Below, piece by piece: positions 37,669 through 50,379 of a stretch of DNA of 64,000 bases. The notes beneath the pieces are model-generated. The model did not search any database and was not told where the DNA came from. It saw only the letters and a list, made by a program, of their open reading frames with translations. How positions within the stretch are numbered: the stretch's first letter is position 1; each line of letters begins with the position of its first letter. The DNA is from Planctomycetota bacterium. Lineage in GTDB: Bacteria > Planctomycetota > Phycisphaerae > UBA1845 > UTPLA1. The DNA lies in assembly GCA_003576905.1 (NCBI GenBank), contig QEVG01000002.1, positions 124,001 to 188,000 of the forward strand, given 5' to 3'. Made by a program: the position numbers and the translations under genes.

Positions 37669-38867
37669 TCGGGCAACTCGAACAGCACGGACAACCCCTG
37701 GCCGACACCGACACAAAGCGTGGCCAGCCCCTTTCGCGCTCCGCGCCGCCGCATCTCACGCACCAGCGTCGTCGCGAGGCGCGCTCCGCTGCACCCGAGC
37801 GGATGCCCAAGCGCGATGGCTCCTCCGTTGACATTGACTCTTGCCGGGTCCAGCCGCAACTCGCGGATGCACGCCAGCGCCTGTGCCGCGAACGCCTCGT
37901 TGAGCTCGACAAGATCGAGGTCCGTCACGTCCCACTGGGCCCGGGCAAGCGCCTTTTTCGTCGCGGGGATCGGCCCGAGTCCCATGCACGCGGGTTCGAC
38001 GCCCGCCGACGCCGACGGTCGAACGACGGCATACGGCCGAAGCCCTGCCTTCGCCGCCGCCGCCGCCTCCATCAACAGCAGTGCCGCCGCGCCGTCATTG
38101 ATCCCGGAGCTGTTGCCCGCCGTCACGGTCCCGCCCTCGCGAAAAGCCGGCCGCAGCCGCGCCAGGTCCTCCAGGGTCGTTTCGGGTCGCGGGTGCTCGT
38201 CCTTATCAACCAGCGCCTTCTTGCCGCGTCCCAGGTCGATCTCCACCGGGACGATCTCCTCCGCAAGCCGCCCGTCCTGCACGGCGGCCTTGCATTTCAT
38301 CTGGCTCTGAAAGGCGAAGCCGTCCTGGTCCTGACGGTTTATCTTGTACTTTTCCGCGACGTTCTCGGCGGTCTCGCCCATGCTGTACGGGTGATGCAGC
38401 GCCGCCATCTTTGGATTCGTCATTCGCCAGCCGAGCGTCGTGTCGTACATGGTCTGGTTGCCGCGGACGTACGACTCTTCCGGCTTCGGGAGGACGAGCG
38501 GCGCGCGCGTCATCGACTCCGCGCCCCCGGCAAGGAATACGTCGCCGTGCCCCGCCTCGATCATCCGCGCGGCAATGGCCACGGCCTCCAGCCCTGACGC
38601 GCAGAGGCGATTCACCGTCGTGCCCGGCACCGTCTCCGGCAGTCCGGCCAGCAGCACGGCCATGCGGGCCGCGTTGCGGTTGTCTTCGCCAGCCTGGTTG
38701 GCCGCGCCCCAGTAACAGTCATCGATGAGAGCCGGGTCGACCTTCGAGCGCGTCACGACCTCGCGAATCACAATCGCCGCGAGGTCGTCGGGCCGCACGG
38801 CCGACAAGGCCCCCCGGTGCCGGCCGATCGGTGTTCGAACGCATTCAACAATGACGGCTTGTCGCAT
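37665..38867 (-). CDS. beta-ketoadipyl-CoA/acetyl-CoA thiolase (PaaJ/PcaF-like)
   Basis: 400 residues. Thiolase that splits a 3-oxoacyl-CoA with CoA. The nucleophilic Cys lies in [12 protein letters not shown], with [17 protein letters not shown] and final LCVGVGQG. The stretches [20 protein letters not shown] and [12 protein letters not shown], and GVGQG rather than GGGQG at the end, match the PcaF/PaaJ branch of thiolases (3-oxoadipyl-CoA). It fits with PaaF-, PaaG- and PaaH-like genes upstream. A general fatty-acid role remains possible. Confidence 0.92.
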
Positions 38868-47845: not shown

Positions 47846-48448
47846 TCAGCCGGCGAGCTTCATGATCATTCCACTGACCCGGCTGATTCCCTTGGGGCCT
47901 ACCTTCATTAGCAGGTCAACCATGGTCCCGATGGCTTCGAGAAAGTTCTGCATGTCGTCCAGACGCTTGGAAAACGCCCGGGCTTCAGCGTTTTGGGCCG
48001 CCTTTCCGCCGGCGTCCCGAGCGGTCATATCGCGGCAGCGGTTGATCGTTTCCAGGATGGGCTCCACTTCGCGGCGCCGCCGCTGGCGGACGATCGTCTC
48101 GAAGAGCTGCCAGACGTCGGTGAGGGCTGTGAAATACTCCTTACGGTCACCCCGGATGTGTTCGCGCTGGATCAGCCCCCAGTCGACAAGGGATCGAAGG
48201 TTCATGGACGCGTTGCCGCGCGAGACCTGGAGTTTTTCCATGACGTCGTCGGTGCAGACCGGCTCCGTCGAGACGAAGCAAAGGGCGTGAATCTCCGCCA
48301 TGGTGCGGCTGATGCCCCAGTAGCTGGCCATTTCTCCCCACCGGCGAATAAACAGGGCCTTGGATTCATCAAGGCCGCGGGGGGCGTTAGACACGACGCG
48401 AGAGGGCGGCTGGGCCGCGCCGGGTGATTCAAGCGATTTCGCAGACAT
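47846..48448 (-). CDS. GbsR/MarR-type winged-helix regulator
   Basis: 200 residues. Winged helix-turn-helix of the GbsR group: LFIRRWGEMASYWGISRTMAEIHAL, VCTDDVMEKLQVSRGNASMNLRSL (recognition helix), and a helical C-terminus for dimerisation. Such proteins control osmolyte or transport genes. GGAGGT lies 6 bases before the ATG. Divergent from cstA with a 9-bp dyad (48468-48496) just before its own start, so autoregulation and control of cstA are likely. Confidence 0.9.
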   Translation of the reverse strand: MSAKSLESPGAAQPPSRVVSNAPRGLDESKALFIRRWGEMASYWGISRTMAEIHALCFVSTEPVCTDDVMEKLQVSRGNASMNLRSLVDWGLIQREHIRGDRKEYFTALTDVWQLFETIVRQRRRREVEPILETINRCRDMTARDAGGKAAQNAEARAFSKRLDDMQNFLEAIGTMVDLLMKVGPKGISRVSGMIMKLAG

Positions 48449-48467
48449 CGGCTACCTCCGAAATAAC

Positions 48468-48496
48468 CAGATATTCCATCCTTTCAAGAATATCTG
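48468..48496. promoter_or_regulatory. dyad operator for the GbsR-type regulator
   Basis: CAGATATTC (48468-48476) and GAATATCTG (48488-48496) are perfect 9-bp inverted arms with an 11-base spacer, 20 bases upstream of the regulator ATG in AT-rich DNA between regulator and cstA. On the minus strand TTGAAA falls in the spacer, so the dyad overlaps the regulator promoter region. Confidence 0.65.
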
Positions 48497-48642
48497 AAAG
48501 TATCATAGCTTTGCGTGTCCCGTTTGCCTAGCCGATTTTGGCACTGCCCGTCGCACTTGCACGTTACTGCTTGAACGACAAGAGGTAACAAGCTAAGCTG
48601 GCTTTCCGTCTCGCGGGGCCGGCCCAAAAACGGGATGACGCC

Positions 48643-50379
48643 ATGAGCCTTGTCACCATTGTCGTTGCCGCGGCCCTTTGTCTACTTGCGGCCTATCGCT
48701 TTTATGGCTGGTTTCTGGCTGCGGCCCTGCGGCTGGACCCGGACGCCGTCACGCCCGCCGTCGCGCTCCGGGACGACAACGACTATGTCCCCATCGAGCC
48801 CCGCTTCCTCCTCGGTCAGCATTTTTCCGCCATCGCCGCTGCCGGACCAATCGTGGGGCCGATCCTCGCGGGCGTGATGTTCGGCTGGCTACCGGCCCTG
48901 CTGTGGATTGTCATTGGCTCGATTTTCATCGGCGGCGTACATGACATCACCGCCTTGGTCGCGTCGGTGCGACACAAGGCCCGGTCCATCGCGGAGGTCG
49001 TTCGCGAGCACATGAGCCGCCGCTCGTACGTGCTTTTTCTGGCGTTCGTCTGGTTCGCCCTGGTCTATATCGTCGTCGCATTTACCGACATAACGGCGTC
49101 GTCGTTCATCGGGAGCATTGAGCTAGAGAGCGGCGAGCAAGTCAGCGGCGGCGGAATTGCCACGAGTTCCCTCCTTTATCTGCTCCTTCCCGTAATCATG
49201 GGGCTGCTGCTGAGATTCACCCGGCTTCCGCTGCCTTTCGCCACGGTCATCTTTCTCCCGCTGGTGGGTGTCGCGATCTGGGCCGGTCAGCTTCTGCCGC
49301 TGGACTTCTCCGCGATTCTCAAGATGTCACCGGCCGCGGCGCAGCGCCTGTGGGGCGTGTTACTGCTAATCTATTGCTTCGTCGCATCCATGGTGCCGAT
49401 GTGGCTGCTGCTGCAGCCGCGCGGACATCTCGGAGGGTACTTTCTCTATTTTGCCCTTGTCGGCGGAGCGCTCGGCCTTGTCCTCGGCGGGGAGAAGATC
49501 CAGTATCCCGCCTACACCGGCTGGACCACTCCCAAGGGCGAGACGCTGTTTCCGATGCTGTTCATTCTTATCGCCTGCGGGGCGTGCTCAGGTTTTCATT
49601 CCATCGTCGCGTCGGGCACCACCTGCAAGCAGCTACGCCGCGAAACGGATGCGAAGATCATCGGTTACGGGGCGATGCTGATGGAAGGCATGGTCGCGGT
49701 TGTCTCGCTCTGCTGCGTCATGCGGCTCGCGCCGGACGCGCCGCTTCTTGCCGGCCAGGGCGGCCCGCGGCCGAATTATCTGTACGCGTCGGGCATTGGT
49801 TCATTCCTCGGTGTATTGGGAATTCCCGCGGCCTTTGGCGTGTCGTTCGGGCTCATGGCGTTTACGACCTTTGTCTATGACACGCTCGACGTCTGCACGC
49901 GCCTGGGGCGATACGTCCTGGAGGAACTCTTCAGCTGGCGGGGCCGTGCCGGACGAGTGGCATCGACGGCCCTCACCGCCGGAGTCCCGCTCTATTTCCT
50001 GATGGGTCAGCCCACCGATCCGGGCGGCCGCATCGTTCCCGTCTGGCGCGTCTTCTGGGATCTCTTCGGAGCGAGCAACCAGCTCCTGGCGGCGTTGACA
50101 CTGATCGGCGTGACCGTCTGGCTGTGGCAGACGCGGCGCGCCCGCTGGGTCTGGTTGGTGACCGGCCTGCCTATGATCTGGATGTACGTGATGAGCACGT
50201 GGGCGCTGATGCGCATCATCGGCGCGCAGTGGTCGGCCCACGGCCTCTCAGCGGATCCCGTGCCGTGGGTTGGAGTTACCCTTCTGGCACTCGCGGCGCT
50301 CATGCTCATCGAGGCCGTGCGGCTTCTCTTCGGCCGCGAGACGCTGCCGCCGCCGCGCGAGGCGGTGCCCGCGACGTGA
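48643..50379 (+). CDS. cstA: carbon starvation protein CstA, peptide/pyruvate transporter family
   Basis: 578 residues, about 16 membrane helices. Inner-membrane transporter induced by carbon starvation in other bacteria, importing peptides or pyruvate. Signatures: FLLGQHFSAIAAAGPIVGPI, GSIFIGGVHDITALVASVRH, CGACSGFHSIVASGTTCKQL and WRVFWDLFGASNQLLAALTL. It lacks the longer C-terminus of some CstA proteins. Weak upstream promoter match (TTGAAC 48571, TAAGCT 48594). Start and stop fit a normal family length; the next gene overlaps by 1 base. Confidence 0.93.
   Translation: MSLVTIVVAAALCLLAAYRFYGWFLAAALRLDPDAVTPAVALRDDNDYVPIEPRFLLGQHFSAIAAAGPIVGPILAGVMFGWLPALLWIVIGSIFIGGVHDITALVASVRHKARSIAEVVREHMSRRSYVLFLAFVWFALVYIVVAFTDITASSFIGSIELESGEQVSGGGIATSSLLYLLLPVIMGLLLRFTRLPLPFATVIFLPLVGVAIWAGQLLPLDFSAILKMSPAAAQRLWGVLLLIYCFVASMVPMWLLLQPRGHLGGYFLYFALVGGALGLVLGGEKIQYPAYTGWTTPKGETLFPMLFILIACGACSGFHSIVASGTTCKQLRRETDAKIIGYGAMLMEGMVAVVSLCCVMRLAPDAPLLAGQGGPRPNYLYASGIGSFLGVLGIPAAFGVSFGLMAFTTFVYDTLDVCTRLGRYVLEELFSWRGRAGRVASTALTAGVPLYFLMGQPTDPGGRIVPVWRVFWDLFGASNQLLAALTLIGVTVWLWQTRRARWVWLVTGLPMIWMYVMSTWALMRIIGAQWSAHGLSADPVPWVGVTLLALAALMLIEAVRLLFGRETLPPPREAVPAT

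Follow-up and report, generated by a model that had tools for sequence, protein, structure and literature searches.

GbsR-type regulators and their operators

According to excerpts of the report on CydE (PMC6096048), this protein of Alishewanella sp. WH16-1 is a GbsR-type repressor of the cydE-cydAB genes, and its DNase footprint site 1 is TATTTCAGAAATTTCTGAAAGTTCA. CioR of Chromobacterium violaceum is likewise a GbsR-type protein, its operon includes cytochrome bd, and the excerpted text of PMC11837568, which gives no operator sequence for CioR, describes both CydE and CioR as repressors of their own operons. A role outside osmolyte control, which the original prediction regarded as a departure for a GbsR-type protein, is therefore not novel as such, having already been published for these two regulators. 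GbsR, OpcR, and OpuAR of Bacillus belong to the same MarR subgroup as the regulator described here and, like it, have been related to the structure of Mj223, on which they were modelled. They differ from it in having osmolyte regulons with choline or betaine as ligands and A/T-rich operators with half-sites four bp apart. In B. subtilis gbsR is autoregulated, and the operators to which GbsR binds are located past the transcription start, where the bound protein is described as a roadblock (PMC6207618 and PMC7396694, in excerpt). Mj223 (PDB 1KU9), the top sequence and fold match to the present regulator, is archaeal, and the sources as excerpted give no operator for it. Our literature searches, which covered titles and the starts of abstracts, found no mention of cstA being regulated by a GbsR-type protein in planctomycetes, and a search on autoregulation from planctomycete MarR operators gave no matches.

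A GbsR-type regulator gene divergent from cstA

The window, that is, the whole 64,000-nucleotide stretch of planctomycete DNA that was analysed (genome G000), contains a gene for a GbsR-type MarR-family regulator of 200 amino acids on the minus strand (47846 to 48448). The divergent neighbouring gene, on the plus strand (48643 to 50379), encodes a CstA-family transporter of 578 amino acids (PF02554, E = 1e-125; included in the CstA tree discussed below). Both the divergent arrangement and the GbsR-type assignment had been correctly recognized in the original prediction. The regulator matched PF12802 in the profile scan with 28.6 bits against a cut-off of 27. Its best solved relative by sequence was Mj223/1KU9 (E = 1.9e-16), and 1KU9 was also the best fold match of its structural model (Foldseek E = 3.7e-9; mean pLDDT of the model, 82). 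The N-terminal winged helix of the MarR superfamily is formed in this model by helices 48-59, 66-73, and 77-90 and strands 93-96 and 105-108. The winged helix and the kinship to Mj223, the template for models of the subgroup, place the regulator in the GbsR-type subgroup. Its score of 56.8 bits with the CudC choline-regulator equivalog model falls far short of the cut-off, 218; the protein is related to CudC yet lies outside that equivalog, a result that bears on CudC and not on the whole subgroup.

A protein search at E ≤0.001 found the regulator in 48 of 61 related genomes, its own included. The ortholog set comprised the window and 46 further loci with 51 to 82% identity; a fragment in G005 and paralogues of 37 to 41% were set aside. 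Residues S76, R77, G78, S81, R85, and L87, which lie in or beside the presumed recognition helix (77-90), are identical at all 47 loci, and C65 is kept at 45 of them. The start of the gene is preceded by a Shine-Dalgarno-like GGAGGT (48454 to 48459, minus strand), read from the sequence. No osmolyte genes were found beside the regulator gene among the seven window proteins scanned, the regulator included; the domain matches of the neighbours were to AHSA1/DUF4287, CstA, UPF0047, 4Fe-4S, isochorismatase, and M23.

A conserved palindrome upstream of the regulator gene

The palindrome TTTCA-N8-TGAAA is present without mismatch upstream of the regulator gene at 34 of the 47 orthologous loci and with at most one mismatch at 44 (window included in both counts), compared with 0.04% and 0.26%, respectively, of shuffled upstream regions. 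The window copy, CTTTCAGATATTCTTGAAAG (48481 to 48500, minus strand), is the putative binding site of the regulator. A weight matrix was built from 44 sites, with training scores from 11.2 to 30.4 bits; the window copy, itself one of those sites, scored 26.2 bits. The matrix counts both strands, so that its consensus, CTTTCAGAAATTTCTGAAAG, is a forced palindrome whose middle bases carry little information.

Loci that had not been used for training, taken from 93 unused matches, also carried the site. At least 11.2 bits were reached at 37 of 40 held-out loci, 18 of 20 from the order (24 available) and 19 of 20 from the wider class (69 available), compared with 0.2% of shuffles; at least 20 bits were reached at 18 of 20 in each group and by 0% of shuffles. 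Some of the held-out loci share a genus with training loci. Those below 11.2 bits were L238, L243, and L275. Within the ortholog set, the site is unconvincing at L058 (no hit above 11 bits), L045 (two mismatches, 12.2 bits), and L070 (11.2 bits). Among the class-level loci the spacing between site and gene is not constant. Pairing of the palindrome in register averaged 6.19 of 9, a figure that is partly circular since the loci were chosen for TTTCA/TGAAA; the weight of the conservation lies in the count at the 47 loci and in the held-out test.

Named relatives of the regulator occur in an uncultured planctomycete (PLA6), a Phycisphaerales MAG, an Opitutaceae MAG, and Neolewinella aurantiaca. 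The Neolewinella protein, from the Bacteroidota and about 40% identical, is directly preceded at its start by CTTTCAGTCTTTAGTGAAAG (21.4 bits). At the Opitutaceae locus the upstream side yielded at best 12.7 bits, and downstream of the gene there is a site of 20.3 bits. Elsewhere in the window (38295 to 38312) a perfect TTTCA-N8-TGAAA that scores 13.0 bits lies inside open reading frames and is probably due to chance.

Comparison with the CydE site

The CydE footprint, as excerpted from PMC6096048, scored 32.0 bits with the matrix, above every training site, and agreed with our consensus at 19 of 20 bases; the consensus had been computed before that paper came to view. A full-text literature search for TTTCAGAAATTTCTGAAA returned PMC6096048 alone. 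The likeness to CydE extends over three features: both proteins are of the GbsR type, footprint site 1 contains TTTCAGAAATTTCTGAAAG, which matches the present consensus, and CydE acts as a repressor at its own promoter region. An operator like TTTCAGAAATTTCTGAAA, a trait of the CydE group, appears from this agreement to be present in the window.

The two systems differ in what surrounds the site. CydE responds to sulfate and regulates cytochrome bd genes, and it has another footprint site that does not resemble the first (PMC6096048, in excerpt), whereas the window regulator lies beside cstA in a genome with no match to cytochrome bd subunit I (PF01654). PF01654 matches are present in 30 of the 61 genomes. 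At the 22 cytochrome bd loci of relatives that were scanned, which leave out eight weaker-match loci (L230 to L237), one gave a weak site (11.5 bits) and the rest gave at most 6.5 bits. On these two grounds a CydE-like control of cytochrome bd was rejected.

A paralogous regulator with its own palindrome

A second regulator, 34 to 44% identical to the first, is present in ten genomes. At eight of its nine readable loci the 300 bp before the gene contain TTTCTGT-N4-ACAGAAA with no more than one mismatch, compared with 1 of 2,700 shuffles; the motif was first spotted in some of the same loci, and L089 was dropped since its contig begins inside the gene. Against the main operator every readable paralogue locus shows two or more mismatches, and none of the 47 main loci has the paralogue operator with two mismatches or fewer. 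The corresponding helices read SRGNASMNLR in the main regulator and ARSNVSNSLR in the paralogue. The joint change of helix and operator looks like a natural specificity switch. In addition to the site before its gene, one of the paralogue loci (L080 to L088), namely L080, has a similar site after the gene (6546).

Promoter overlap and probable autorepression

A predicted sigma-70-type promoter for the regulator gene, TAGGCA-17-TATGAT, ends at 48502. Its -35-like box (TAGGCA, 48525 to 48530, minus strand) and its -10-like box (TATGAT, 48502 to 48507, minus strand), both recognized by consensus only, are separated by a 17-bp spacer, and the -10-like box ends one base from the palindrome. This geometry recurs in relatives. 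A hexamer with at least four of six matches to TATAAT ends no more than six bases before TTTCA at 44 of the 63 order-level loci that have the site, compared with 3 to 7 of the 63 at three control positions; it is missing at the other 19. The triplet TTG is enriched at the matching -35 place. The palindromic operator thus appears to overlap the core promoter of the regulator gene, called by consensus, as operators do in MarR-type autorepressors. Transcription would be expected to start inside the palindrome because the -10-like hexamer directly precedes it.

The regulator very likely represses its own gene. The operator's position, its conservation throughout the class, its agreement with the CydE site, and its overlap with promoter-like sequence were all observed, and from them we strongly infer autorepression. 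In the proposed mechanism, a regulator dimer would bind the 20-bp palindrome at 48481 to 48500. This element starts a single base beyond the -10 box, and the position at which transcription of the regulator gene is expected to initiate falls within it. The bound dimer would block initiation or early elongation, giving negative autoregulation through a CydE-class operator, and a ligand would relieve the repression. The regulator would then belong to the GbsR/CydE-type autorepressors as a new planctomycete representative.

Additional operator-like sites

The regulon in the window's genome was sought with pattern searches rather than with a whole-genome matrix scan. There are two exact copies of TTTCARNNNNNNYTGAAA in this genome, and among the matches listed only the regulator's own site and one other exceeded 20 bits. 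That second site, which also scores 26.2 bits, lies 222 bp before a VTC-domain gene (G000:C62:166424-166441; L097:1501-1518). No such site was found at the homologous VTC loci of G001, G011, and G008 (48, 44, and 29% identity, respectively), and on these loci the VTC-domain gene was rejected as a second target, the site having been found in this genome only. The VTC site does mean that the regulator's own promoter may not be its sole target. About ten further loci, among the matches listed, score 11 to 17 bits, and for this reason 11.2 bits is not a specific threshold genome-wide. The L098 site scored 16.9 bits.

The setting of the regulator gene is different again in family f4, where at eight loci (L046, L047, L050, L055, L062, L070, L071, and L077) it overlaps, or lies within a few bases of, a downstream gene from one protein cluster. 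The one member of this cluster that was scanned has a phosphoribosyltransferase domain. From its motifs we take the downstream gene to be probably pyrE, for orotate phosphoribosyltransferase. This arrangement suggests an operon with pyrimidine metabolism.

Possible control of cstA

It is possible, but in our judgment unlikely, that in addition to its own gene the regulator acts on the divergent cstA gene from the same operator, by repression or in some other way, with CstA or its substrate feeding back on the regulator. The edge of the operator is 142 bases from the cstA start codon, and a promoter scan of 48440 to 48660 found no plus-strand promoter.

Gene neighbourhoods give this possibility its best support. 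Of the 13 family f1 genomes that have a full regulator gene, nine have a cstA gene close by, divergent in one (the window) and upstream in tandem in eight. CstA is also divergent from the regulator in G022, which belongs to another family, and the last part of a CstA frame precedes the regulator in G018. CstA proteins form the largest cluster of neighbours, with nine loci compared with eight for the next, among the 40 of 47 loci that were clustered (the regulator frame was not picked at the other seven). The linked CstA proteins are diverse. In a tree of 29 CstA proteins, some of whose deep joins were flagged as unsure by the program, they fell into a clade of the window, G010, and G014, a clade of G001, G002, G007, G008, G012, and G015, a clade of G011 and G013, and the long branch of G022. 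On this tree the partners would represent at least three, and probably four, distant types of CstA. A functional tie between the regulator and CstA is suggested because the pairing recurs with such distant types. Even three species of one genus that all keep the regulator differ in this respect, the CstA of the window being of another type (34 to 37% identity) and in the opposite orientation. A comparison of 48643 to 50379 with L034 and L035 gives the appearance of an in-place exchange of the transporter gene within one genus.

Other evidence speaks against direct control of cstA. The operator lies downstream of cstA in eight of the nine linked family f1 genomes, and 36 of the 47 genomes that carry a complete regulator gene have no CstA next to it, the distance being about 12.6 kb in G027 and G058. 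At the tandem loci the cstA frame ends 6 to 1,298 bp ahead of the called regulator start, and in G001, G007, G012, and G015 the gap is at least 762 bp and holds other called frames. Linkage at the level of the class was assessed only among the matches listed. The pairing with cstA is real but loose. Where cstA is unlinked, no site of at least 11.2 bits was found in any of 40 regions of 1,301 bp, from 40 of 42 genomes (G057 and G060 were left out). The best score was 10.4 bits, in G030, one of eight of these genomes without the regulator, so that 32 bear on cstA control. Control of cstA in trans was rejected on the basis of these regions. That the operator would serve cstA, as the original prediction implied, finds no support either in the unlinked regions or in the position of the operator at the linked loci.

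Alternative readings of the intergenic region

Autorepression from the palindrome at 48481 to 48500 differs from the original prediction in the element that is bound. That prediction placed the operator in a dyad with perfect 9-bp arms, CAGATATTC-N11-GAATATCTG (48468 to 48496, no strand). The dyad exists: CAGATATTCCATCCTTTCAAGAATATCTG is found at these positions with no mismatch, it is the sole match in the window at up to three mismatches, and there is one exact copy in the 4.7-Mb genome. However, when the 194-bp intergenic region was simulated 20,000 times with a Markov-1 model, 1.3% of the versions contained a perfect 9-bp inverted repeat with a spacer of up to 20 bases, and the window holds 16 such repeats. 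Considering this chance rate and this number, the dyad alone is only mildly unusual and constitutes weak evidence. Conservation of the dyad, proposed as a check, did not materialize. Its arms pair in register at 2.58 of 9 positions on average in 43 relatives, compared with 1.81 to 3.14 for six shifted controls (42 loci). The arm at 48488 to 48496 lies inside the conserved palindrome; the outer arm (48468 to 48476) lies outside it, is not conserved, and has no matrix hit above 8 bits. The 29-bp dyad was rejected as the operator because its register pairing is at the control level, and it is very improbable that it fills this role. An operator thus very probably does lie in the gap between the regulator and cstA, as predicted; judging from the conserved sequence it had been slightly misplaced, the conserved element being the overlapping palindrome CTTTCA-N8-TGAAAG.

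A role of the palindrome in RNA, or as the target of a DNA-binding protein other than the adjacent regulator, is conceivable for any short palindrome but is here highly improbable, because the promoter geometry would put the start inside the palindrome and keep the full hairpin out of the transcript, the palindrome accompanies the orthologous regulator across families and into the Bacteroidota, a nearly identical sequence is protected by a GbsR-type protein in Alishewanella (PMC6096048, in excerpt), and the paralogous regulators own a different palindrome.

Implications

A broader, more speculative picture can be drawn, which we regard as rather unlikely: a GbsR repressor of the CydE class may have lost its cytochrome bd target, so that its own promoter is nearly all it still controls, and may have joined different types of CstA in several independent pairings. 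If this were true, the regulator would serve as a local sensor that limits itself and is linked to the function of CstA, in pyruvate or peptide uptake, and the CstA gene would have been exchanged in place while the regulator and operator stayed. The dyad illustrates how visual inspection can single out a flawless repeat that is about eight bases away from the conserved register. The main and paralogous regulators, with their different helices and palindromes, form a natural pair through which DNA recognition by GbsR-type proteins could be dissected. For a planctomycete regulator of wide occurrence, the likely operator is now fixed and tied to the footprinted site of CydE.
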